A DNA stretch of 37,610 nt, taken from the IMG/VR virus record IMGVR_UViG_3300008450_000152, positions 1 through 37,610 of that record; one strand, 5' to 3'. Source of the stretch: a virus. Under the pieces are notes generated by a model. The model had not been told where the DNA came from. It did no database searches and saw only the letters and a program-made list of their open reading frames with translations. Position numbers and translations under genes: made by a program. Positions 3,596 to 35,517 of this stretch are shown here, one piece after another; the first letter of the stretch is position 1; every line of letters starts with the position of its first letter.

Positions 3596-3885
3596 TGCCC
3601 ATACTTTTTCCCGTCCCACAATCCTATTTGCTGCGTCTTCGCAGGCGTTGGCATCTCATTGACTGCCCGTGGCGCGAATAGGCCTACCCAGTTGAAGTTG
3701 ATACTGTTGTCTATTGATCGTATTGCTTCAGCCTCCTGCAAGGTTGCCAGGAAGTTCAACTGCCTCTTTGAGGCAACGTCTGTGATAGGTGCCTTCAACG
3801 CCTTCCTATGCTCTTTCCAATCTTCCCATGCCTGCTTAAACTCGGGTGAATCAAATGGCAAAACTTCAAATAGTTTGGGTTTCAT
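3592..3885 (-). CDS. putative helicase loader / replisome organiser
   Basis: A 97-residue protein. The pattern SPEFKQAWEDWKEHRK, then SKRQLNFLATL, then AIRSIDNSINFNWVGLF is the short helical C-terminal domain found in many phage replisome-organiser and DnaT-like proteins. The usual DNA-binding N-terminal domain is absent, so this is a stand-alone version. Its stop forms an ATGA overlap with the DnaB start, which supports a job in loading that helicase. Its start overlaps the methyltransferase gene by 20 nt. Loader function is inferred from pattern and context, not proven. Confidence 0.6.
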   Translation of the reverse strand: MKPKLFEVLPFDSPEFKQAWEDWKEHRKALKAPITDVASKRQLNFLATLQEAEAIRSIDNSINFNWVGLFAPRAVNEMPTPAKTQQIGLWDGKKYGQ

Positions 3886-4765
3886 ATGCTTCTATTGCTT
3901 TGAAGATTAAATATGGAATCTGAGGCACTACTGCATTTCCTCCTCCCTTGATGCTTTCGTTTCTCCACTTTGAAAAGGTAATTCCGTCCAATCGGTCGGA
4001 AATCCCATCATTTCCATGACAAATTGGGGAGACAGTTGGGAAGGCTTCCCAGTCATTTCTCTTGTAATTTTTACCAAAGAATCTTGAGTTTCCAATCCCG
4101 TCACTTTCTCCCCGCAATCCGATGCCATTGGTGTCGGCAGCATGCCTGAATAAAGAATCTGACTCGTTAGGCAGTTGTATTTGTTCCCCGGATGCGGTGC
4201 CTGATTGCGTCCCTCTTCCGTTCTTTTGCGCTGCCTCTCTTGATACTTCTCCGGGGTTTCCGCTATCTCTACCAGTCCGGGCGTGAGCAACAAACCAGAC
4301 CCTGTCCCTTCTGTGCGGGGCGTTGACGCTTGCAGCTGGAATAAGAAACGGGATGACTTCATATCCTTCGCCCTCCAATTCAGCGCACACCTCGTCGAAT
4401 ACCAATCCTCCATTCCAACTAACAAGTCCACGAACGTTCTCGCCAACGACCCATCTTGGCTTAATTTCTTTGATTGCTCTAAGCATCTGAGGAAAGAGAT
4501 GTCTTTCGTCGGCCTTCCCAAGCCTCTTTCCTGCGTGGCTGTAGGGTTGGCAGGGAAATCCTCCCGTGAGGATGTCGATTGATCCTCTATGAACGGTAAA
4601 GTCAGTTGTGCATATGTCTTCATAACTGATTGCATTTGGCCAATAGTATTTTAATAGTCTTTGTCCAAAAGGGTTCCACTCACAATGGAAAACATTTTCC
4701 CAACCCATCCATTCGGCTGCAAGGTCAAACCCTCCTATGCCTGAAAACAAGGAACCGTGTCTCAT
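3866..4765 (-). CDS. dcm: DNA (cytosine-5) methyltransferase
   Basis: 299 residues with the ordered motifs of C5 methyltransferases: motif I FSGIGGFDLA at 7-16 (AdoMet binding), motif IV GGFPCQPYS with catalytic Cys72, motif VI ENV at 109-111, motif VIII HRRDRVWFVA at 151-160, and motif X GGGNAVVPQIP near residue 280. The target-recognition stretch lies between about 165 and 270. No matching restriction enzyme is seen, so it is probably a solitary phage enzyme protecting DNA from host restriction or marking it. Most of the gene (3928-4623) is also open in a second frame that looks coding. It follows a gene-poor stretch and leads into the helicase genes. Confidence 0.93.
   Translation of the reverse strand: MRHGSLFSGIGGFDLAAEWMGWENVFHCEWNPFGQRLLKYYWPNAISYEDICTTDFTVHRGSIDILTGGFPCQPYSHAGKRLGKADERHLFPQMLRAIKEIKPRWVVGENVRGLVSWNGGLVFDEVCAELEGEGYEVIPFLIPAASVNAPHRRDRVWFVAHARTGRDSGNPGEVSREAAQKNGRGTQSGTASGEQIQLPNESDSLFRHAADTNGIGLRGESDGIGNSRFFGKNYKRNDWEAFPTVSPICHGNDGISDRLDGITFSKWRNESIKGGGNAVVPQIPYLIFKAIEAYETQTI
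3928..4623 (-). CDS. overprinted protein inside the methyltransferase gene
   Basis: A 231-residue frame (start MKTYAQLTLPF) lying wholly inside the C5 methyltransferase gene in another minus-strand frame. Recognisable segments are SLARTFVDLLVGMEDWYST near the middle, then RFLFQLQASTPRTEGTGSGL, LLPTP-like MLPTPMASDC, and LSPQFVMEMMGFPTDWTELP near the end. From memory, phage proteins with LPTP and MGFP..WT patterns are common alongside methyltransferase genes, so this may be a truly dual-coded region. No biochemical function is known to me. The alternative is that the second frame is open because conserved motifs constrain the first. Confidence 0.5.
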   Translation of the reverse strand: MKTYAQLTLPFIEDQSTSSREDFPANPTATQERGLGRPTKDISFLRCLEQSKKLSQDGSLARTFVDLLVGMEDWYSTRCALNWRAKDMKSSRFLFQLQASTPRTEGTGSGLLLTPGLVEIAETPEKYQERQRKRTEEGRNQAPHPGNKYNCLTSQILYSGMLPTPMASDCGEKVTGLETQDSLVKITREMTGKPSQLSPQFVMEMMGFPTDWTELPFQSGETKASREEEMQ

Positions 4766-11068: not shown

Positions 11069-11761
11069 TTAGTGTAAGTCTACCCATGTAGTACCGTTGT
11101 AAACTTTTAGTTTATTGTCGTCGGTGTCGTAATAAACGGTTCCGGCTTCTGCGTTAGGTGCTGCGGATTGTCCTACGAACTTCAAGCCTCCGTTTTCGTG
11201 TATGCGGAGCCTCTCTGTACTATTCGTACCAAACTGCAATGTTTTTGTGTTCCCTGCGCTGTACACCTGCATGAGCATCGTTCCGCTTGCGTTGGTCTCG
11301 ATATTCAATCCGGGATTATCTGTTCCGTCAATAGTTCGGAACTCTGCGAGCACTCCTTGCGTTGCTTGTCTTACGGCTAACTTATATGCGGGCGATGTCG
11401 TTCCGATTCCAACATTCCCACTACTCGCTGCCAATACCGCACCTGTGGTATTGTAGATACTTCCCGCAACCTGAAGGGCGTATGCTCCTGCGTCGGTGGT
11501 GGTGCCGATCAGGAGTTCGCCAGCAGTATTTAACGTCAACCTGAATGCCGCGGCAGTAGCGTCATACACGTTCCAATTCGCATCACCATTTCCGCCGACA
11601 CCTGTCCACCATATTTGCGCGCCTCGTGTTTGTCGAATGATTGCAGCATTCGTAGAATTAGGTACTTGGTCAAAAAAAGCATTTCCCGAACTTTCTTGGA
11701 AAAAAGTGCCTGTTCGTACTCGCATTGTACCAGATACATCCAATGTATATGCAGGGTTCAC
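11069..11761 (-). CDS. C-terminal part of the tail fibre, behind an in-frame TAG
   Basis: 230 residues from the first Met (MNPAYTLDVSGTMRV). It is in the same frame as the fibre gene upstream, separated only by the TAG at 11816-11818 and 18 sense codons. It carries the fourth DAGAYALQVAGSIYNTT module and ends with a fibre-type tip reading GTVYYDTDDNKLKVYNGTTW. So it is either the detached end of an interrupted fibre or is made by amber suppression, or it starts internally. Read through, the fibre would be 882 codons. The tip is where receptor contact would be expected. Confidence 0.65.
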   Translation of the reverse strand: MNPAYTLDVSGTMRVRTGTFFQESSGNAFFDQVPNSTNAAIIRQTRGAQIWWTGVGGNGDANWNVYDATAAAFRLTLNTAGELLIGTTTDAGAYALQVAGSIYNTTGAVLAASSGNVGIGTTSPAYKLAVRQATQGVLAEFRTIDGTDNPGLNIETNASGTMLMQVYSAGNTKTLQFGTNSTERLRIHENGGLKFVGQSAAPNAEAGTVYYDTDDNKLKVYNGTTWVDLH

Positions 11762-11815
11762 CGTTCCAATGCCTACGCTGCCACTTGTATGCGCGAAGAC
11801 AGCACCTGATGTATT

Positions 11816-13717
11816 CTATATTGAACCCGCTACCTGAAGAGCGTAGGCACCGGCGTCGGAGGTGGTGCCGATCAGGAGTTCGCCGTCATCTTTTATCCTC
11901 ATCCTCTCTGTATTATTTGTGCCAAATTGAAGCATAGCTGAAGCAGATGTGGATATGAAAGGAATCCCAGAATTATCTCCCATATACACTGAGTTCCCTG
12001 TACTTGTGGCTGTATATCTAATTCCATTTCCTGAACTTGCGGCAACATCTAATTTATAGCCAGACAAACTTGTTCCAATAGCAACAGTTCCGCTTGTTGC
12101 CGCAAAAACAGCATTTGTCGTGTTGTATATGCTCCCCGATACCTGAAGAGCGTAGGCGCCTGCGTCGGTGGTGGTGTTGATATACATTTCACCCGCCGGG
12201 AAATATGTACCGACGGTTGATGTATTGCCTATCGTTGTTGTATTGCTTCCGTTACCTCTTCCGTTATGCCCTATGACAATCTCATTTGTATTCCCATTCG
12301 CTGACGCTCGCGTATCTCTTCCGATATAAATTGAATTTGTGGATGTAGCATTCGAGCCGCCTGCGTTCAAAAATGCGCCAGCAAATTCTCCCAACGCTGT
12401 GTTAAGCCCACCTGTCGTTATATTGTTTAGCGACCTGTATCCAACGGCAGTATTGCTGCTCGCGGTAGTCGCTCTTGAAATTGATCCCCCACCTACGGCA
12501 GTATTGAAACTTCCCGTCGTATTTTCCAGCATGGCAGGAAGGTCGTTCCAATACGAACCGATTGCCGTATTATCTTCTCCCGTAGTATTTTTATACAGCA
12601 CTTGCCTTCCAATGGCAGTACTTCCATTCCCGGTTGTGTTTGCATTCAATGACCCTTCCCCCACGGCAGTTAAAAGACTCCCGCTTGTATTTGATTGCAA
12701 TGCACCAGAACCTACGGCAACAATGTTGCTCCCGGTTGTGTTTGCGTTCAGCGCACTTGCTCCAAAAGTTGTATTGGATGCGACATTACCAGCACCTCTA
12801 CCCGCTCTGATGTTCGCGTAAATGTATGCGTCCTGCGTTGCGTAGATGCTACCAGACACTTGTAGCGCAAATGCCCCGGCGTCTGCGATGCCAATATGTA
12901 CCTCACCATCATTCGCAATCCTCATCCTTTCTGCATTGCTACCGCTTCCACTTGGCGTGAAGAATGCGAGGTAGTTCCGCACGTTAAACGTATCGCTCGG
13001 ATAGAAAGTTATGCGTCCTCGCGTTGATGTATTCGGCGATAAGAAATTGATACTTTCTTCGCGTATCGTTCCGCTTGCATTCGGATTGGTGTGGCGCAGT
13101 TCGATGACCATGTTTTTGTCTGATGCCGTCTGCTCGAATCTCGCCACGTCTGAATTGCTTGTGACGTACAATTTCCGTGATGCGGAAGATGTTGAACCGA
13201 CTATCAATTCACCGTTCCCAATCTTTAGCGTGCTATCCATGTAGGATTGACCGGAGTACACATTAAACACCCCGTTACTCGTGGTTGTGCTACCAATGGC
13301 GAACCGACCCGCGCTGTGATACAACCGTGTCGTGTCAAGGTTCGTAGATGTCGTGAACTCTGGCATATATCCTGCCACCCCGCTGCCTGTGATAGCGGAG
13401 CCACCAGTACCAGCCATTTCAGCCCATTTCACTCCGACTGAATCCCAATACAGGTATTTGTTTTTCTGGATCGAGAATATCAGCAGGCCATTGCGCTTAG
13501 TTCCGCTGACGCTTGCCGTGTCCGTAACCATGGGTGGCATCATACCCCTGATCGCATTGTAACGTGGGCCAATGGAAAAGTAGGCTGCTGTATCCGTCAC
13601 CGCATTGCGTCCTACCGACATCCGGTTGGAGAACACATAGTCAGGCACAGGGTTGATCTGCTGTCCTTGGGTACGGATGAAAATGAAAAGACAAAGGCAC
13701 AGTATAATGCGCTTCAT
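11816..13717 (-). CDS. long repetitive tail fibre, N-terminal part
   Basis: 633 residues, ending at a TAG. It starts with a signal-like hydrophobic segment MKRIILCLCLFIFIRTQG. The body has a stretch of NTTGS-type repeats with N-T-A-V-G or N-T-A-I-G (about 12385-12790), resembling the head repeats of trimeric autotransporter adhesins (YadA/Hep_Hag type). Modules reading DAGAYALQV occur three times here and once beyond the TAG. The protein probably forms a trimeric fibre or adhesin at the tail tip. The stop falls at the codon that is Tyr (TAC) in the other copies, so it looks like a single-base change. Confidence 0.72.
   Translation of the reverse strand: MKRIILCLCLFIFIRTQGQQINPVPDYVFSNRMSVGRNAVTDTAAYFSIGPRYNAIRGMMPPMVTDTASVSGTKRNGLLIFSIQKNKYLYWDSVGVKWAEMAGTGGSAITGSGVAGYMPEFTTSTNLDTTRLYHSAGRFAIGSTTTSNGVFNVYSGQSYMDSTLKIGNGELIVGSTSSASRKLYVTSNSDVARFEQTASDKNMVIELRHTNPNASGTIREESINFLSPNTSTRGRITFYPSDTFNVRNYLAFFTPSGSGSNAERMRIANDGEVHIGIADAGAFALQVSGSIYATQDAYIYANIRAGRGAGNVASNTTFGASALNANTTGSNIVAVGSGALQSNTSGSLLTAVGEGSLNANTTGNGSTAIGRQVLYKNTTGEDNTAIGSYWNDLPAMLENTTGSFNTAVGGGSISRATTASSNTAVGYRSLNNITTGGLNTALGEFAGAFLNAGGSNATSTNSIYIGRDTRASANGNTNEIVIGHNGRGNGSNTTTIGNTSTVGTYFPAGEMYINTTTDAGAYALQVSGSIYNTTNAVFAATSGTVAIGTSLSGYKLDVAASSGNGIRYTATSTGNSVYMGDNSGIPFISTSASAMLQFGTNNTERMRIKDDGELLIGTTSDAGAYALQVAGSI
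12385..12790 (-). repeat. adhesin-head-like repeats inside the fibre gene
   Basis: About eight units with the pattern N-T-T-G-x-x-N-T-A-V/I-G are spaced roughly 14-20 residues apart. Diversity between units is high at the third codon, so they are old repeats under protein selection, not recent duplications. They match the left-handed beta-roll head repeats of YadA-like adhesins. Confidence 0.6.
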
Positions 13718-21496: not shown

Positions 21497-21813
21497 TACT
21501 TTTCAGCTATTGCAAAGATTCGCCACATCCTTCTGCGCTCCTGTATATTGGTAATGCCGTTGATGGCATACCTTTTACCCCTGTAAAGGATAGTATAACT
21601 TTTTGTTGGAGTGAAGCCAGTCGTATATTGTACGTCAAAGTTGTAGGAATCTATAATTACACCTTCGTTATGCAAGAAAGTACGGTTGCTGGAAGTAGGC
21701 CTGGCCCATGCAAATGCCTCGTATATAGTTGTCATCGTCTCTACCGCACCGCCAGAGTCCTGCCCAGTCAAGGTAGATTGCTGAAAGGCTATCTTCTGCA
21801 TCCGACCCGTCAT
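21496..21813 (-). CDS. head closure protein (stopper)
   Basis: 105 residues. The phrase IYEAFAWARPTSSNRTFLH, then FTPTKSYTILYRGKRYAING and the ending RRMWRIFAIAEK give the pattern of SPP1 gp16/HK97-type head closure proteins (a small beta barrel). It is coupled by ATGA to the connector gene and precedes gp10, the standard order. It would plug the portal after packaging. Confidence 0.72.
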   Translation of the reverse strand: MTGRMQKIAFQQSTLTGQDSGGAVETMTTIYEAFAWARPTSSNRTFLHNEGVIIDSYNFDVQYTTGFTPTKSYTILYRGKRYAINGITNIQERRRMWRIFAIAEK

Positions 21814-22355
21814 ATGACAAACCTTTTGTTGTTCATAATCGTCCTTTCCGCCTCTACAGAAATATCCAATCTGCCATCATTGTACTCACCTCTATGATTG
21901 AAGATAAAGGTAAACATCTGCAATATGGCAAGTTTCAAATCGGCAGGTACGGTAGTATAGCCTGCCTTGTATTCTATTTCATAAATACCGGCCTTACTGA
22001 CTACAATGACTTCATCATTAGCACCATAATTGACAGGCTGGCCGCTACTATTGACAATGTATTGACCGCATTCGTCAATACCAAGCTCATAGCCGTAATT
22101 AAACGTCTTTACGGGGCTATAAGATAGTTTGAACAAGGTATTAGGGTATAGTTGCACTACCTGCTTGACCGTCTTTTCTATCAGCGCAAGTCCAGTCGCA
22201 TTTTCTATCGCTATTCGTGCGGCAGATATGTAGATTGGAATTATGCTGTCATAATCAGGGTAGTCTATTGCAGCGTGCAATTTGGCCTGCTCGACAGTTA
22301 TAGGCTCGGAACCTGTATCAGAGATTTTGGTACTTATTACGGTATTGATGGGCAT
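21810..22355 (-). CDS. head-tail connector, gp6-like
   Basis: 181 residues. EPITVEQAKLHAAIDYPDYD, then IPIYISAARIAIENATGLAL and the long helix KLAILQMFTFIFNHRGEY are typical of the HK97 gp6/QLRG-type connector that docks on the portal. It is the first head-tail joining gene after the glycosyltransferase island; its 5' end overlaps the last glycosyltransferase gene by 38 nt. That overlap hints that the island's last gene has settled into the operon. Confidence 0.82.
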   Translation of the reverse strand: MPINTVISTKISDTGSEPITVEQAKLHAAIDYPDYDSIIPIYISAARIAIENATGLALIEKTVKQVVQLYPNTLFKLSYSPVKTFNYGYELGIDECGQYIVNSSGQPVNYGANDEVIVVSKAGIYEIEYKAGYTTVPADLKLAILQMFTFIFNHRGEYNDGRLDISVEAERTIMNNKRFVI

Positions 22356-23349
22356 AATTGTACTTGTAGTCGATTGCTATTTTTGTTATCCATGACTCAA
22401 ACGCTTTAAGTTCCGTATTTGGATCTAATTCCCTGCTCCTTTCCCTTGCCTTTGCGCTCCACTTACGATAAACTCTTTCGTTATTGAGTCTGTTTATGGC
22501 ATTTACCCATGCATCTATATCGTCTCTATCTTCCACAAATATACCTGCATTTAAACAATTTTCTTCCAATCCGGGCGTCTTGGTCGCTATGACAGGAATG
22601 CCATTACACATAGCCTCGGTTGCAGTTCTGCCCCAACTTTCATATTTGCTGGGCATTAGCAATATCCGAGTCTGCCTATACACAGGCCTAATGTCTACTT
22701 GCTTATCATAGACTATAACATTGCTCGGCTGATCCGTTATTTGGCCAATTTTTATAGGTTCAGAGTAGGATCCTTTAACGCCTAAGAACTTTACGTCTGG
22801 CATCCTTTCCGCTATAGCCTTTAGGATATGTCCACCCTTGTTATGGTCGAGGTTTATCAGCGTTACATATTTTCCATCCCAAGGGTCATTTGCCACGTCA
22901 TAATACCTCCAATCCGTAGGTGGATGCATTACAATGCTTGGATGCTGATATTGCAGTTCATTCTTAGTCCATTCGGAATTATATACAACGAATTGGGTTA
23001 ATTCAGCATTAGTTAGATGCTCCCTTTTGTAATTATTGTGAATTAAATGGAAAACAGGTTTCTTGAACATACCTGCTAAAGCCTGCGACCATGCAGAATA
23101 ATCAAGATGGGTTATGATTGCGTCTGCTTGGTTAAATAGCATTGTCTCATTATACTGATCTGGAGGAAAAACATCTACATCGTCGAAAATGTAATGGCTA
23201 TCTATCCTATGCTTATTTGCCTGCTTGAGCAATACTTTGACAGTGTGTCCCTTTGATTGCAGGTATTTGTTGATTTGATGCAACATCATTTCTGCGCCAC
23301 ATACGTGGTGGGGAGGATAAAGATGGATGGAACACAATATATTCAGCAT
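22318..23349 (-). CDS. GT4-family glycosyltransferase
   Basis: 343 residues. The N-terminus reads MLNILCSIHLYPPHHVCGAE, then MMLHQINKYLQSKGHTVKVL, as in GT-B enzymes that begin with an acceptor-side Rossmann fold. The C-terminal half has ILLMPSKYESWGRTATEAMC, then NGIPVIATKTPGLEENC, which is the E-x-x-G/E-x7-E type nucleotide-sugar site of GT4. It should transfer a sugar from a nucleotide donor; the substrate is not known. It lies with three related genes between the capsid and connector genes, so the acceptor might be a virion protein. Confidence 0.88.
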   Translation of the reverse strand: MLNILCSIHLYPPHHVCGAEMMLHQINKYLQSKGHTVKVLLKQANKHRIDSHYIFDDVDVFPPDQYNETMLFNQADAIITHLDYSAWSQALAGMFKKPVFHLIHNNYKREHLTNAELTQFVVYNSEWTKNELQYQHPSIVMHPPTDWRYYDVANDPWDGKYVTLINLDHNKGGHILKAIAERMPDVKFLGVKGSYSEPIKIGQITDQPSNVIVYDKQVDIRPVYRQTRILLMPSKYESWGRTATEAMCNGIPVIATKTPGLEENCLNAGIFVEDRDDIDAWVNAINRLNNERVYRKWSAKARERSRELDPNTELKAFESWITKIAIDYKYNYAHQYRNKYQNL

Positions 23350-23352
23350 ATA

Positions 23353-24102
23353 TCAAAGGATTTTCCAATTATGGCAGTATATGTCTTTAGTTTCTAAATG
23401 CGAGGCGTCAGGACCAAACCATTTGGAAGGGGCCATAACATCCCCTCCTGCCAGCCAGGCTGCCCACCAAGAGTACGTACTATTCGCTATTATGTGGGCT
23501 TTGCAAGCCTTCATTACTCTAAAACTATCTATTGTGTTGCCATCATACCACCAATGGTCACCGGGAGGCAATGTGCCTAAATGCTCTTTGGCCTTCATCA
23601 TATCGTCAGAGAATATCATATATGGGCCGGGCAATTCAGACATAGCCTCTTGGTAATATTCTCTGGTGCAGATAGGATGGTAATTAGATCCATAATCTCC
23701 CATACGGATATGTACTGCCGTGTATGCTACAGGGCTATGTTCCTCTGCAAGAGTAAAGTAATGTCTTACCTTATCTGCGCAATGTGTAAAGTATTTGCTT
23801 GACTGCATATGACCGGAGTAACTATAGCCATCGGGATGCTGCAAGCCTTGCCAACCCCAATTTACATGATATTCTGGAAGGCATTTATGCTCTTCTTGTT
23901 GCTTAGGCAAAGGATTTGCAAAGTATTTCGCAATAGATATATCTTCCTTAGTTCCAAACCGTTCTAAAGCATCGTAGTTTACCCATTCAGGAAATGAATA
24001 ATTGTATCCATTTGCCTCGGCAATGCCTATGACCCCTGCAATCTGGAACATCTGATTGCCTAATCTGCCGTATCTGCCAAGCGCATTATATGTTATTGCC
24101 AT
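23353..24102 (-). CDS. GT11-family (alpha-1,2-fucosyltransferase-like)
   Basis: 249 residues. The family marks are visible in order: GRLGNQMFQIAG near the N-terminus, then HIRMGDYGS in the middle (the H-x-R-x-G-D fucosyltransferase signature), then MIFSDDMMKAKE and NSTYSWWAAWLAGG near the end. GT11 enzymes use GDP-fucose and transfer to a galactose-type acceptor. The start is fixed by the 10-nt overlap with the gene before it. In this phage a fucosylated glycan on the virion or on a host surface is possible; the substrate is inferred. Confidence 0.85.
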   Translation of the reverse strand: MAITYNALGRYGRLGNQMFQIAGVIGIAEANGYNYSFPEWVNYDALERFGTKEDISIAKYFANPLPKQQEEHKCLPEYHVNWGWQGLQHPDGYSYSGHMQSSKYFTHCADKVRHYFTLAEEHSPVAYTAVHIRMGDYGSNYHPICTREYYQEAMSELPGPYMIFSDDMMKAKEHLGTLPPGDHWWYDGNTIDSFRVMKACKAHIIANSTYSWWAAWLAGGDVMAPSKWFGPDASHLETKDIYCHNWKIL

Positions 24103-24806
24103 TCGTTATCGCGCTTCCTGTGGTGATGAAATATAACCGGATATGGCCTGTCGTTCATTCCATCGTCATATACAAATGCGCCATAATTATAGTGCGCAGG
24201 CCACCACCAGGTCTTTATATTATGCTTATGAGCCAAACAAGTCAGGATGGCTTGATCGTGTCTATGCTCTCTAAAGTCAGAATGATTCGGCAAAACAGAA
24301 GGGCTATCATCTATCAGATTTGGGACCTCGCACCAACCGAGCCATTCTTTTACAAAACTCCTGCTTCTATCGCATACTCTGAGTAAAATACCAGAGGCCT
24401 GACATTGTTTAATTGGCATTGATTTCCAGCCAGTTATCGTATGCATTGTATCCATCTTGCACCATTGCTCATGTATGTACATATTACGAAATACCATGAT
24501 GTCATTGCCTAAATCCGTCAAATGCTTCAAAGGTGCTATAATTTCAACTCCGGCATCTGTATATAGTAACCAGTCTCCATCGGCGCCCCATTTCAGCTCC
24601 ATATCTATTATATATGGCTTCCAAAGCCAATATCCAGCGCCTCTTTCGTGCCGCAATATGTCATAATGAGCATGCACCCAATCCGGGTCTAAATCCTTTG
24701 GAACATATATCGTCGAACAATTAGCGCCCCACTTTATCGCACTATCAAATGCCAGTTGGGCGGAAATATCCATGTTTCCGCTGCTGAAAGTTATGTGTCT
24801 GAGCAT
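24093..24806 (-). CDS. glycosyltransferase-like protein (GxGYWLWKP family)
   Basis: 237 residues. Visible marks are RGAGYWLWKPYIIDMEL, then WLLYTDAGVEII, which carries a D-x-G nucleotide-sugar type motif, and EHRHDQAILTCLAHKH. I recognise this as the pattern of a putative GT-A enzyme found in bacterial polysaccharide clusters, with Y-W-x-W-K-P, a D-A-G donor site and an H-R-H-D-Q-x-I end. The exact CAZy family is not certain. It overlaps both neighbours by 10 and 16 nt, so the four genes form one tight unit. Confidence 0.68.
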   Translation of the reverse strand: MLRHITFSSGNMDISAQLAFDSAIKWGANCSTIYVPKDLDPDWVHAHYDILRHERGAGYWLWKPYIIDMELKWGADGDWLLYTDAGVEIIAPLKHLTDLGNDIMVFRNMYIHEQWCKMDTMHTITGWKSMPIKQCQASGILLRVCDRSRSFVKEWLGWCEVPNLIDDSPSVLPNHSDFREHRHDQAILTCLAHKHNIKTWWWPAHYNYGAFVYDDGMNDRPYPVIFHHHRKRDNEWQ

Positions 24807-25426
24807 ATGTTTCGTAGATATTCTTCTGACGCCTTAAATGTATCGCTATAGTCTACATTCCTGTTCCATAAATCTGAAAATGCAGGCTTTTGTACGCAAA
24901 GAAAAGGAATACTAACGTGTGCGGGTATAGAAGGCAAAATAAGCCTGTCTAAGAACGCATCATACATTTCGGCTGTGTTAGGTCTATAATAGCTTAAAAT
25001 GGCTGTAATGAGGCTGTGCGTGTATCCTATGGCATGTGTCGTATATGCCGAAGATATAGTTCTTAAATGGGTTGAGCAAAACCCTGGAGTCCTATGATTC
25101 GGGTAAGGCCTTGCGTTGCACCCATAATACATCCAAGCCCAATTCTGTTTGATAAGTTCTATATGTATTTTCTCAAACCAATGTACCGACTCAAATGCGC
25201 AATCATCCTCAAGGATTAGTACTCTATCGTACTCAGCCTCTGCGCAATGCATAAGTATTTGGTAATGAGACCAGTTAAAAGAATCTCTGGGCGTATCCTT
25301 TTTGACTGAATCAAAGAACTCGAACTCAAGTTCTATGGCATCAGCGTTACGCATGAACTGCTTTCTCCTGTCAATCCTTTCCGGTTGGGAAAGCACAATA
25401 ACTTTATCGTAAAATGTTTGGAACAT
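24791..25426 (-). CDS. GT25-like glycosyltransferase
   Basis: 211 residues from the start at 25426. Marks are KVIVLSQPERIDRRKQFM near the N-terminus, then the acceptor segment RDSFNWSHYQILMHCAEAEY, and RVLILEDDCAFES, whose E-D-D is the usual GT25 metal site. GT25 enzymes (LgtB/LPS galactosyltransferase-type) add sugars to glycans. The frame is open to 25471, but that part covers the capsid-gene terminator, so the ATG right after its T-tract is the probable start. It is the first gene of the island. Confidence 0.75.
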   Translation of the reverse strand: MFQTFYDKVIVLSQPERIDRRKQFMRNADAIELEFEFFDSVKKDTPRDSFNWSHYQILMHCAEAEYDRVLILEDDCAFESVHWFEKIHIELIKQNWAWMYYGCNARPYPNHRTPGFCSTHLRTISSAYTTHAIGYTHSLITAILSYYRPNTAEMYDAFLDRLILPSIPAHVSIPFLCVQKPAFSDLWNRNVDYSDTFKASEEYLRNICSDT

Positions 25427-25455
25427 AAAAAAGGGGGTACCCAAAGGTACGCCCC
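25427..25455 (-). terminator. intrinsic terminator after the capsid gene
   Basis: On the minus strand GGGGCGTACC, a short loop and GGTACCCCC pair with one C-C mismatch (25433-25455), then TTTTTT follows. The first GT gene's ATG begins directly after the T-tract. Capsid mRNA would be cut off here, with some read-through needed for the glycosyltransferases and the neck and tail genes unless another promoter exists. Confidence 0.72.
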
Positions 25456-25481
25456 TCTTTATGAAACTCACACACCAAACG

Positions 25482-26636
25482 TTAGGTGCCAGTCGTACCG
25501 TACACAGCAGCCTTCGGCTGGAAGGACAGCAGTTCGATACGAGCCTCAGCGCGGTAGGTGACCAAGTTCTTGATGAAGTCCGACTGATCGAACTCCGTTG
25601 AACGAACTTGGAAGCCCGAGGCCTGTGCGATGGCGAAGGCGTCAGTATTGATGATGTAGAACCTGGAGCCGGTAACTTGGCTGTGGGGAACTACGGGAAC
25701 ACCATTGATGCGTACAGAGCCGTTGGCGTCGATGGCTACAGAGGCAGGTACAGAATAATCACCAGGCTTGGTCAGAAGTACCTTGGACCATGCATCCCAT
25801 GTGGTCAGGATGATGTTTGCCATACCGAGGCCGAGGTTGCCATGCTGGGCGAGACCCGAAATCATCTTAGCAACAGTAACCGTCTCAGTCGTGGTAAGGG
25901 CGGTGCTGTTGGTGGCGATGTTGTTCAGGAAGCGAGTGTTGACAGCCTGGTTCCAGTCTTCAACCAGAGACTGGCTCAGGTAGGACTGGAGGAAGGGAAG
26001 GTCCTGAAGCATCTGGCGGCTCACCTTGACATAGCCGGCGATGAAGGGAACGGAAGTGTTCACCATTTCAACATCGTAGTCAAGCTGGGCCTTGTCATTG
26101 CCTTCGGTCTGTGCGCCGAAAGAACCTTCTCCAACCGGGGATTTGCCGCGGGGGAAAGTTACGTTGCCCGTGCCGGTCGGGATAATGCGGAAGACATCGT
26201 ACAGATGCGGGTTGTAGAAGCTGCGCAGGATGGGGTTCTGAACGTAGCTGATCTGGGAAGTGCCAGTCAGGTTGTTGCTCATAGTCATCGTAGCTACATC
26301 CTTCATGGACATAAACGACTTTTCCGACTTGATGGAATCGTAGTTGTCGTTGACGATGTCGATGACGGCCTGCTTCAGGTGCTGGCTGTTGCTCCAACCG
26401 GACTTGTAGTCGGCAGTAATAGCAGATTTGACCTTGCCGGAATCGGCCAGCAGGCGGTCTACATTCTGCTTCAGCTCGATTAGGCTTTCGCCCTTCTTGG
26501 CGCTGTCTTCATTGAGCTGCGATACCTTGGCCTCTATCTCCTTATTAACCTTGGCAAACTCGGCAGCCAGTTCGTCCTTGTATCCTTTAATCTTAGGATC
26601 AAGAACGTCCGTAATTGCTTTAACGGTTTCGTTCAT
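25482..26636 (-). CDS. major capsid protein, HK97 fold
   Basis: 384 residues. The first ~110 are a coiled-coil delta-type scaffold (ELAAEFAKVNKEIEAKVSQL, then LIELKQNVDRLLADSGKV), expected to be cut off by the prohead protease. The folded part has GTGNVTFPRGKSPVGEG, then FIAGYVKVSRQMLQDLPFLQ, which are standard HK97 major capsid signatures, and ends ARIELLSFQPKAAVYGT. It follows the protease gene by one base and is followed by a strong terminator. The absence of a separate scaffold gene agrees with the delta domain. Confidence 0.92.
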   Translation of the reverse strand: MNETVKAITDVLDPKIKGYKDELAAEFAKVNKEIEAKVSQLNEDSAKKGESLIELKQNVDRLLADSGKVKSAITADYKSGWSNSQHLKQAVIDIVNDNYDSIKSEKSFMSMKDVATMTMSNNLTGTSQISYVQNPILRSFYNPHLYDVFRIIPTGTGNVTFPRGKSPVGEGSFGAQTEGNDKAQLDYDVEMVNTSVPFIAGYVKVSRQMLQDLPFLQSYLSQSLVEDWNQAVNTRFLNNIATNSTALTTTETVTVAKMISGLAQHGNLGLGMANIILTTWDAWSKVLLTKPGDYSVPASVAIDANGSVRINGVPVVPHSQVTGSRFYIINTDAFAIAQASGFQVRSTEFDQSDFIKNLVTYRAEARIELLSFQPKAAVYGTTGT

Positions 26637-33856: not shown

Positions 33857-34055
33857 CCTCTATTAAGGCATTCTGCGTCTGTATGATGATCTGGAACGCA
33901 TTTGCCAGAACCATAACCTTGTCCTCAGCCATTCGATCATATATCTCATCCGGGTACTCTATTACGGCGCTTATTAGGTTTATCTGACTCTCTATGATGG
34001 ACAGGTAGTCAATCTGTACCTGATCGCCCTCTACCTTTGCTTCTACCTCACTCAT
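33849..34055 (-). CDS. small acidic hypothetical protein
   Basis: 68 residues: MSEVEAKVEGDQVQIDYLSI, then NLISAVIEYPDEIYDRMAED and a helical end. Acidic and helical, no motif. It is coupled by ATGA to the metallophosphoesterase gene before it. It may be a partner of that enzyme; no function is known. Confidence 0.58.
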   Translation of the reverse strand: MSEVEAKVEGDQVQIDYLSIIESQINLISAVIEYPDEIYDRMAEDKVMVLANAFQIIIQTQNALIEAI

Positions 34056-35023
34056 AGGATAATACCTTTATGTATCCTATAATTCTTGACCGAAAAATCG
34101 TCCCCCTGCTTTACCGCGATGGCAAAGCCTTGGGACCATTTGTTCAACTTTGCGTAATCCGGGTGCATATCACATAGGCATCCTACACTCCAGGTAGTGG
34201 TAATCTTGCCATTCATGTCCGTTTCCGTATGCTCGGACACCTGATGGGCATGCCCTTGCAGGCTACTGACCTTAGACTTGAGGAACAAGCCCCGGGCAAC
34301 GTTTACCGACTGGAAGATGCCGGATGCGTACTCATGTCCGTGAATAATGGACAAATGTCCAAACTTTACTATCCGTTTGTCCTTGATAATTTTCACCCCC
34401 GGCATCCGGTTCGTAATCACATTCTCCAAGCTGAACTCCGGTACCCCAATAATTTCAGCCGCCTTCATCCACAAAAAGTGATCGTAGCGCTCCTCGTGGT
34501 TGCCATACTTGTAATATATCGGGACTTGTAGTATTTCCTTCAAGGCACGGTAAAAAAATCCCAACATATCCAACTCTTCTGCAACACTTCGCTTCTTCGG
34601 GTCCCTCGTAAAGCGGGAAAGGCCGTAGAAATCCAGAATATCGCCATTAAGCAACACAGCATCTATCTTCTGCCCCTGTATATGGTCGAAAATCGCCGTT
34701 AAAGCGTCAATATCGTGATAGGGTATATGGACGTCCGATAGTATCAGCAGACTATCCTCCTTTATGTCATAAGCCTCATACTCCCTTGCATCGCTCTCGG
34801 GCAACTTATATGGGTTTCTGGGCCTGTCAGGCAACCTTGGATGTATAATCTTGCCATTACCCTCTACCACCTTACCCTCAATGTAGCGCAAATGCTTCCG
34901 GGCATTCTCTACATTGGTAAAAAGCAACGGATTCTCATTGTACATAATCCGCGCCAGCTTCAAGGTAGGCATCTCCCACCCGTACTTCGTCCGATACTCC
35001 TTGGCCTTCTTAGTCTTTAGCAT
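34052..35023 (-). CDS. metallophosphoesterase
   Basis: 323 residues from MLKTKKAKEYRTKYGWEMP. The calcineurin-like site is complete: DVH at 97-99, GDILD at 127-131, GNHEE near 180, HGHE near 233 and GHAH near 260. About 85 residues precede this domain and look helical, possibly for DNA or protein binding. The likely action is hydrolysis of a phosphodiester or a nucleotide; phage enzymes of this sort have varied roles. The start overlaps the endolysin stop by seven bases. An earlier Met at 35068 would extend it into the endolysin gene. Confidence 0.85.
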   Translation of the reverse strand: MLKTKKAKEYRTKYGWEMPTLKLARIMYNENPLLFTNVENARKHLRYIEGKVVEGNGKIIHPRLPDRPRNPYKLPESDAREYEAYDIKEDSLLILSDVHIPYHDIDALTAIFDHIQGQKIDAVLLNGDILDFYGLSRFTRDPKKRSVAEELDMLGFFYRALKEILQVPIYYKYGNHEERYDHFLWMKAAEIIGVPEFSLENVITNRMPGVKIIKDKRIVKFGHLSIIHGHEYASGIFQSVNVARGLFLKSKVSSLQGHAHQVSEHTETDMNGKITTTWSVGCLCDMHPDYAKLNKWSQGFAIAVKQGDDFSVKNYRIHKGIIL

Positions 35024-35517
35024 AGGTATATGAATCCGACCAAGTTCAACCCTGGTCCATTTGTCCAATCAAACCTTCTGCGCTTCTGCGCCACCTCCTT
35101 TCCTTCCCTCGACCCGCCATCGTTTGTATTGCCCTCAATAGTGGTCATAATGCCATCCTTCACGCTCTCCACAATCCCTATATGCCCCTTCCAACCTTGA
35201 CCCAGCCTCCAAACAACCAAAGCACCAGCCCTCGGAGTCCGACCCACCTTGAACATACTACTCCCCGAAAAATTGGCAAAGGTAGCCGTGCAACTCGGCG
35301 CAAACAGCCTGTCAAAAGCCTTGACCTTCTCCGGATCGGAAGAAAAAGCCTCCTTGGCCACCAACTCGGTAAAATAACAGCACCACGAATCGCCCATGTT
35401 CCAACCCACAGCCTTCATCTTCCGCTCAAACACAGGATCAAACCAACCCCTATTCCCAGCCTTCTCTTCCTGCCCCATATACGACCTGGCAACCGCAATA
35501 ATCCCGTAAGCATCCAT
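35017..35517 (-). CDS. endolysin-like peptidoglycan hydrolase (NlpC/P60-CHAP fold)
   Basis: 166 residues. The active-site zone is GWNMGDSWCCYFTELVAKEA (nucleophile Cys46 or Cys47), followed by RTPRAGALVVWR and the His of GHIGIVESVK (His112), then TIEGNTNDGG. This is the Cys-His papain-like pattern of small phage lysins of the TIGR02594 kind. It has no signal peptide, so the holin at 8703-8930 would be needed. A TACTTTTG box lies 16 nt before its ATG. It is the first gene of a short unit with the metallophosphoesterase, away from the rest of the lysis genes. Confidence 0.8.
   Translation of the reverse strand: MDAYGIIAVARSYMGQEEKAGNRGWFDPVFERKMKAVGWNMGDSWCCYFTELVAKEAFSSDPEKVKAFDRLFAPSCTATFANFSGSSMFKVGRTPRAGALVVWRLGQGWKGHIGIVESVKDGIMTTIEGNTNDGGSREGKEVAQKRRRFDWTNGPGLNLVGFIYLC

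Follow-up and report, generated by a model that had tools for sequence, protein, structure and literature searches.

The window is the whole stretch of DNA that was analysed (37,610 nucleotides; positions 1 to 37,610 of IMG/VR virus record IMGVR_UViG_3300008450_000152). Four glycosyltransferase (GT) genes, co-directional and all on the minus strand, were located between the genes for the major capsid protein (MCP) and a head-tail connector, as follows:

25482..26636, minus strand: HK97-type MCP (PF05065, E 3.4e-17; phrog_10), the upstream border of the locus
25429..25459, minus strand: terminator-like hairpin and, behind it, a U-rich stretch, in the gap from the MCP stop to the GT25 start
24791..25426, minus strand: GT25-family glycosyltransferase (PF01755, 23.6 bits; invariant EDD)
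24093..24806, minus strand: GT-A-fold glycosyltransferase of an unnamed family, here YWWK (AlphaFold2, pLDDT 92.9; conserved RGAGYWLWKP and YTDAG motifs)
23353..24102, minus strand: GT11-family (fucosyltransferase-type) glycosyltransferase (PF01531, E 8.9e-22; phrog_2644)
22318..23349, minus strand: GT4-family glycosyltransferase, adjoining the connector (PF00534, E 1.4e-15; phrog_26352, E 2e-68)
21810..22355, minus strand: gp6-like head-tail connector (PF05135, E 1.4e-6; phrog_442, E 2.4e-15), the downstream border

The first-pass annotation had described four consecutive GT-like genes between capsid and connector, and the open reading frames, their strand and the outer limits (22318 and 25426) were confirmed. 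GT25 and YWWK overlap by 16 nt, YWWK and GT11 by 10 nt, and GT4 and the connector by 38 nt; 3 nt separate GT11 from GT4. For GT25, the ATG at 25426 (codon 16 of a longer ORF that opens with a GTG at 25471) is the preferred start, and in the alignment the start residue of most close relatives falls on this ATG.

The G+C content was 0.41-0.42 over the GT genes, 0.41-0.44 over the connector and downstream tail genes, and 0.54 in the MCP gene. A recent foreign island was rejected on base composition, since the GT genes resemble the genes downstream and the MCP gene is the outlier. Nearly all informative comparisons show purifying selection on the GT genes: dN/dS was 0.02-0.13 in nearly all those with unsaturated dS, the exception being one pair (dS about 0.01) with a dN/dS of 0.75 for GT25, a value resting on a handful of changes. 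Because dozens of related contigs share the arrangement and dN/dS is low, it is real and not a product of chance. A DNA-level search of INPHARED returned zero matches.

Three of the enzymes were placed in CAZy families by sequence. GT4 scored 57.7 bits against PF00534 (cut-off 26.4) and carries the E-x7-E motif (ESWGRTATE in the alignment). GT11 scored 78.1 bits against PF01531 (cut-off 23.9), with the conserved motifs GNQxFQ, HxRxGDY, FSDD and NSTxSWWxAW and with invariant columns in the alignment. The window copy of GT25 fell just below the Pfam cut-off of 24 for PF01755, which was matched by 13/17 of its homologues (best E 1.4e-15); with the EDD motif invariant in the alignment, the assignment to GT25 is made through these homologues. 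The GT25 family profile also matched procollagen galactosyltransferase 1 (PDB 9u7j, E 2.5e-11), which modifies a protein side chain with sugar, and mimivirus R655 (9crz, E 1.1e-9), a likeness that spans only part of those enzymes. Known members of GT11 are fucosyltransferases, and fucose is a reasonable expectation for the sugar transferred here, by analogy with the family; epimerase-family sugar enzymes were sought in the window and not found.

YWWK has no family in Pfam, PHROG or NCBIfam, and none of 21 members gave a Pfam match. Its model adopts a GT-A fold, and the best PDB matches were GT6 (ABO transferases, BoGT6a) and GT8 (LARGE1, XXYLT1) enzymes, with TMq of about 0.44-0.63 and 8-14% identity (about 10%), so that the likeness is one of fold. 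Membership of CAZy GT6 was rejected at the sequence level (hhalign against a bacterial GT6 protein, probability 0.3%). Bacterial homologues of YWWK sit among glycosyltransferases in apparent polysaccharide loci.

For the comparison of relatives, 50 distinct loci were retrieved by MCP similarity alone. In 50/50 no recognised gene stood between GT4 and the connector, and GT4 is a near-universal member of the locus; YWWK and GT11 were also present in 28/50, GT25 in 29/50 and all four genes in 28/50. The first-pass annotation had proposed looking for GTs at the capsid-connector border of related phages, and there they were found. The locus is not an insertion peculiar to this phage: from this distribution it is ancestral and clade-wide, not a local island. 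In a sister group the order is capsid, methyltransferase, GT4, connector, the methyltransferases of these loci matching PF13489 (x0) or PF05050 (x5); the window's own interval has no methyltransferase. Other glycan-type genes in the interval of relatives were FkbM-type and other methyltransferases, GT2 and MptE-like genes, and there was also cargo: a DNA methylase (L018), homing endonucleases (L216, L307), an RNA-ligase-like gene (L300) and DUF3310 (L013).

Three loci were compared further. L013 and L032 are close to the window in MCP (76/62% identity), protease (67/64%) and GTs (37-61%), and distant in TerL (41-42%), portal (36-37%), connector (23-36%) and tube (39%). The third, L056, has a portal and protease of Mu type, and its MCP belongs to another family (phrog_1005); directly after this MCP gene come GT11, MTase, NTP-transferase, YWWK, GT25 and GT2-like genes. 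By sequence comparison, an unrelated phage has thus gained GT11, YWWK and GT25 independently in the corresponding position. The GTs of the locus occurred in 0/29 MCP relatives in bacterial genome contigs, and the four families were at this place in none of the prophage-type relatives and in neither of two cultured flavophages. Since these distant capsid relatives do without the GTs, the locus is dispensable for assembly in general.

A hairpin with a U-rich stretch lay 80 nt or less from the MCP stop in 106/114 of the relatives' loci, and the same search after seven other genes gave 23/534 (0-12% per gene). Its stem is 12 bp long, with five pairs retained through two-sided changes, and it is a probable attenuator. 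Transcription of the GTs with late genes, as first annotated, has to be qualified as regards the capsid gene by this terminator-like element right behind the capsid stop. Matches to sigma-70-like promoters within the locus were at the level of shuffled sequence, and an Rfam search found nothing.

Near-identical phages differ only by swapped GT11 or GT-A alleles. L012 and L006 are mostly 90-100% identical, with GT11 at only 60-79%; L008 and L010 mostly reach at least 90%, falling to 64-90% over YWWK/GT11. This exchange suggests that the glycan is under diversifying pressure.

A Bacteroidota host is suggested by 27-28% identity to flavophages 11b and phi10:1. The nearest matches in genome contigs are at only 22-30% identity over the MCP, and for this reason the host is a guess.

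Mycobacteriophage virion glycosylation would be the closest precedent by analogy. It is attributed to Freeman et al. 2023 for Che8 (cluster F), Corndog (cluster O) and Myrna (cluster C) in three citing papers (PMC12619734, PMC12363180, PMC11600133). These papers describe cluster O phages as having an O-methyltransferase gene followed by three GTs in tandem that modify capsid and tail tube (PMC11600133), and name Che8 gp110 and Corndog gp38 as essential to glycosylation of the capsid (PMC12363180). As here, these are phage-encoded GTs in tailed phages, with capsid and tail tube as the proposed target, and in the window the enzymes are of recognisable families or fold (Pfam GT4, GT11 and GT25; GT-A fold). 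The systems are likened by description, with Actinobacteria hosts there against probable Bacteroidota here; the present locus has a fixed MCP-connector placement, a hairpin conserved behind the capsid gene, and exchange of alleles.

Two further phages offer analogues that favour a virion role. A tblastn search with GT4 against 50,697 phage records gave only Streptomyces phage TurkishDelight at E 1e-8: gp20, with two GT4-like halves, is a homologue (31.6% identity, E 5e-28) that lies between the major capsid and major tail genes. It is a single long GT gene accompanied by two other genes with no Pfam match, and GT11, GT25 and YWWK were not found there. In the cultured flavophage Cellulophaga phi18:1 (PMC11946311), a methyltransferase (PF13578) adjoins a GT-like gene (PF04765) within the head block (gp40-gp41); this gene belongs to a different GT family and sits between a MuF-like gene and the protease.

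Because dozens of related phages keep a variable version of the set at exactly this place, a sugar coat on the virion is the most likely product. We judge it probable, from comparative sequence data, that late cytoplasmic enzymes make a strain-variable glycan on a virion protein, the MCP being the best candidate. The four enzymes would act sequentially in the cytoplasm during head and tail morphogenesis, using host nucleotide sugars as donors, and would build a short oligosaccharide, with fucose expected from GT11, on the acceptor before or after capsid maturation. The hairpin behind the MCP gene would pass only part of transcription, giving enzymes in catalytic, not structural, amounts. GT4 would perform the near-constant step (with a methyltransferase partner in the sister phages), and the remaining enzymes would elaborate the glycan and differ from strain to strain as genes are gained and lost and alleles exchanged; near-identical phages may therefore bear different head glycans. 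Ecologically, the glycan may shield the particle from binding by the host or the environment, or help it adhere to surfaces rich in glycans.

The idea of the first-pass annotation that the GTs may glycosylate capsid, tail or fibre proteins is strengthened as regards the virion by the position in 50/50 relatives, the independent gain in L056 and the mycobacteriophage precedent, but capsid, tube and fibre are indistinguishable as targets from sequence. Mirror-tree correlations of MCP with GT divergence were 0.46-0.78, but MCP correlates with other late genes too. GT divergence follows that of the MCP no more clearly than that of the other structural genes, and for GT4 the correlations with tube and protease are equally good. 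A Thr-rich MCP C-terminus (YGTTGT) tracks the four-GT state within one clade, and other four-GT clades have different tails; being confounded with ancestry, it is a lead only. The locus keeps the connector as its neighbour just as faithfully as it keeps the MCP; this, like its absence from distant capsid relatives, counts against the preferred reading.

The main rival is that the enzymes alter the host surface (LPS, capsule or a surface glycoprotein) late in infection, so as to prevent superinfection or keep progeny from re-adsorbing to debris; the place in the head block would then only set late expression. Enzymes of the GT4, GT25, GT11 and YWWK families are of kinds typical for surface-polysaccharide loci, the YWWK homologues of bacteria lie beside other GTs and apparent transporters, and in cyanophage P-TIM68 a GT11 and a YWWK homologue are adjacent in a sugar cluster away from the capsid genes. 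This reading nevertheless leaves unexplained why every retrieved relative has the genes precisely between MCP and connector and why they reached the corresponding position in an unrelated phage; the locus contains no recognisable flippase or polymerase gene, and the bacterial genome contigs with MCP relatives are without these GTs. Nor was an integrase or serine recombinase found (no PF00589 or PF00239 match in a record of unknown completeness), which makes lysogenic conversion unlikely for this phage. We regard host-surface alteration as unlikely.

Less likely again is a glycan carried by a virion protein other than the capsid, such as tail tube, connector or fibre. The tube and protease correlations of GT4 would fit, as would the reported modification of both capsid and tail tube in mycobacteriophages, but L013 and L032 combine close MCP, protease and GTs with distant tube and connector, and in L056 these enzymes are encoded next to a capsid gene of an unrelated family.

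Glycosylation of phage DNA at modified cytosines, demonstrated in other phages and serving as protection from host nucleases, seems very improbable here. The phage does encode a C5-cytosine methyltransferase (3866-4765), and DNA glycosylation by virus-encoded GTs has been published (Pyle et al. 2024, as cited in PMC12619734). Against this reading, about 20 kb separates that methyltransferase from the GT genes, which belong to the structural block; partners such as FkbM and GT2 are atypical of DNA modification; and a TET/JBP-type hydroxylase was not found in the window, in a search whose control likewise matched nowhere. Metabolic cargo (a moron) with no dedicated virion role, here only through past insertion, is scarcely credible: clearly unrelated cargo does gather in the interval, but sporadically, against a GT4 retained in all 50 relatives under purifying selection and the independent gain of the same enzyme families by L056.

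Within the preferred reading of virion glycosylation, a more tentative proposal is that the capsid-connector interval is a dedicated, fast-diversifying capsid-glycan locus with a logic comparable to that of a bacterial O-antigen locus, its alleles traded between near-identical phages, perhaps aided by the homing endonucleases found in the interval, to give different head glycotypes within one lineage. In a bolder form, GT11 followed by an enzyme of GT6-like fold might build a branched fucosylated structure like histo-blood-group antigens.

In the literature searched, experimental virion glycosylation in tailed phages is documented only for a few mycobacteriophages. If the reading of virion glycosylation is true, head glycosylation would be a broad, predictable trait across a large uncultured clade, readable from genome maps. 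The enzyme set, including one unnamed GT-A family, may provide tools for protein glycosylation, and the allele exchange opens the purpose of phage glycans to direct testing.

The window is a virus record 37.6 kb long. Its late genes lie on the minus strand in an HK97-type order, as judged from ORF calls and Pfam/PHROG families: TerS, TerL, portal, SPP1-gp7-like, S78 protease, major capsid protein (MCP), four glycosyltransferase (GT) genes, gp6-like connector and tail genes. Neighbouring GT genes, and the connector gene at their end, overlap or almost touch. The first-pass annotation had placed four GT genes between MCP and connector at 22318-25426; the genes and the limits were both confirmed, the ATG at 25426 being the start of most close GT25 homologues. 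Features of the window were as follows:

34052-35068 and 35017-35517, minus strand: calcineurin-like phosphoesterase gene, which overlaps with the end of a gene with a CHAP domain (probable endolysin)
25429-25459, minus strand: terminator-like stem-loop and U-rich stretch, directly after the MCP gene
24791-25426, minus strand: GT25-like gene
24093-24806, minus strand: YWWK gene (working name; Y-W-x-W-K-P-type motif)
23353-24102, minus strand: GT11 gene
22318-23349, minus strand: GT4 gene
11069-13717, minus strand: long repeat-rich proteins with GIGTTSP / DAGAYALQVSGS repeats, at the fibre position, without Pfam match
3866-4765, minus strand: C5-cytosine DNA methyltransferase (PF00145), in the early block

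The GT4 and GT11 products scored above Pfam cut-offs. The GT25 copy of the window fell 0.4 bits short, and the family was matched by 13 of its 17 homologues; against PDB, the GT25 family profile matched procollagen galactosyltransferase 1 and mimivirus R655. GT11 enzymes characterised so far are fucosyltransferases. No Pfam, PHROG or NCBIfam model searched matched YWWK, and its AlphaFold2 model (pLDDT 92.9) has a GT-A fold, nearest among solved structures to GT6 and GT8 enzymes (identity ~10%). Assignment to GT6 was rejected at the sequence level, since sequence-profile comparison with a bacterial GT6 protein was negative. Of 248 Bacteroidota genomes, 5 contain homologues of YWWK, which in several of these genomes adjoin other GTs and transporter-like proteins (ORFs judged by eye).

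Relatives were collected as IMG/VR matches to the MCP and their loci were compared gene by gene. Fifty distinct loci were fetched solely through the similarity of their MCP and span the whole stretch between the MCP and connector genes. In all of them (50/50) the final recognised gene ahead of the connector was GT4; GT25 was present in 29/50, and YWWK and GT11 in 28/50. The search for GTs at the capsid/connector border of related phages found them in these relatives. The earlier interpretation is supported in part, for gene families, place and the idea of virion glycosylation, and is extended; a one-off insertion is not borne out. Once loci found via GTs were added, GT4 was present in 112 of 114 intervals, which are non-independent samples and, where found via GTs, biased; the only two without it belong to the cultured flavophages 11b and phi10:1. 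A second common layout was MCP, methyltransferase, GT4, connector. The MCP tree required at least 4 changes for the four-GT state and 6-7 for GT25 alone; genes have therefore been gained and lost at a fixed place. The four GT families were not recognised in any of 29 MCP relatives from bacterial genome contigs (22-30% identity).

A stem-loop with a U-rich stretch was found no more than 80 nt past the MCP stop in 106/114 loci. The same element was found after other late genes as follows: portal 3/46, protease 0/81, connector 2/104, tube 8/67, GT4 8/114, gp11 2/84 and HTadap 0/38. Among nine close relatives, two-sided changes preserving pairing occurred at 5 of the 12 hairpin pairs. This conservation suggests that the hairpin is probably an attenuator, so that the GT genes are late genes 3' of it. 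The proposed transcription with the late genes therefore stands in part: the GTs are late genes, but a probable attenuator separates them from the MCP gene. In the window the hairpin touches the GT25 start codon, and a translational effect is therefore possible.

The intervals of relatives also contain FkbM and other methyltransferases, GT2 and an MptE-like protein, gene kinds typical of glycan loci. Sporadic cargo comprised an N6/N4 DNA methylase gene between YWWK and GT11 (contig L018:10489-11094), an RNA-ligase-like gene (L300), DUF3310 (L013) and homing endonuclease genes (HNH/NUMOD4, L307:5146-5682; GIY-YIG, L216:3174-3854), the last being possible drivers of allele exchange. Between relatives L012 and L006, identity is mostly 90-100% over 4.7 kb and falls to 60-79% in GT11; between L008 and L010 it is mostly 90% or more, with a dip to 64-90% across YWWK and GT11. 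These dips in near-identical pairs reflect allele exchange confined to the middle genes. Where dS was usable, nearly all pairs gave a dN/dS of 0.02-0.13 for the four GT genes, similar to MCP and connector; one GT25 value of 0.75 is uninformative (dS near 0.01).

Against the window, L013 and L032 are nearer in protease, MCP and GTs than in TerL, portal, connector and tube; overall, gene-divergence correlations did not single out MCP. In the main four-GT clade the MCP C-terminus (25485-25510, minus strand) is a Thr-rich tail, AVYGTTGT(A/S); GT4-only relatives end in YGSAS/YGAI/YGNI. This association of tail and four-GT state is confounded with ancestry.

Similar enzymes occur in other phages. 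In the unrelated siphovirus contig L056 the portal is of Mu type and the protease Mu-like; a cement protein is also present, and the MCP, of phrog_1005, is directly followed by:

L056:4802-12338: GT2-like, unassigned gene, GT11, methyltransferase, NTP-transferase, YWWK, GT25, GT2

Small unassigned genes and a tape-measure gene come next. This GT set beside a capsid gene is an independent acquisition. A similar set in contig L073 lies directly upstream of the genes for terminase and portal. GT11 also adjoins a YWWK homologue in cyanophage P-TIM68, which supports both acting on one glycan; that sugar cluster is apart from the capsid genes, so the pair is not limited to head blocks. In the head block of the cultured Cellulophaga phage phi18:1 (L348:6057-7726), a methyltransferase gene is accompanied by a TOD1/MUCI70-type GT gene; this phage is a possible laboratory model.

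The most likely role of the locus is glycosylation of virion proteins, foremost the MCP. The enzymes would act in the cytoplasm on a virion protein, MCP first, fed by host nucleotide sugars. A search of the window for epimerase-family genes found none, and neither a flippase nor a polymerase gene could be recognised in the locus. Lysogenic conversion by the GTs is unlikely, because neither an integrase nor a serine recombinase was found in the record, which may be incomplete. Glycosylation of phage DNA, with which the C5 methyltransferase would agree, is not supported: a TET-type gene was looked for in the window and not found, although the control of this search was weak.

According to papers citing Freeman et al. 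2023, mycobacteriophages glycosylate their capsid and tail tube (PMC12619734, PMC12363180), and cluster O phages carry three tandem GTs 3' of an O-methyltransferase (PMC11600133). In kind of gene, these systems are the closest precedent for the window locus. In the open-licence literature searched, no account was found that places GT genes between capsid and connector in comparable phages. Virion glycosylation by the present locus is a prediction from sequence; the interest of the locus lies in its clade-wide position, repeated acquisition and allele exchange.
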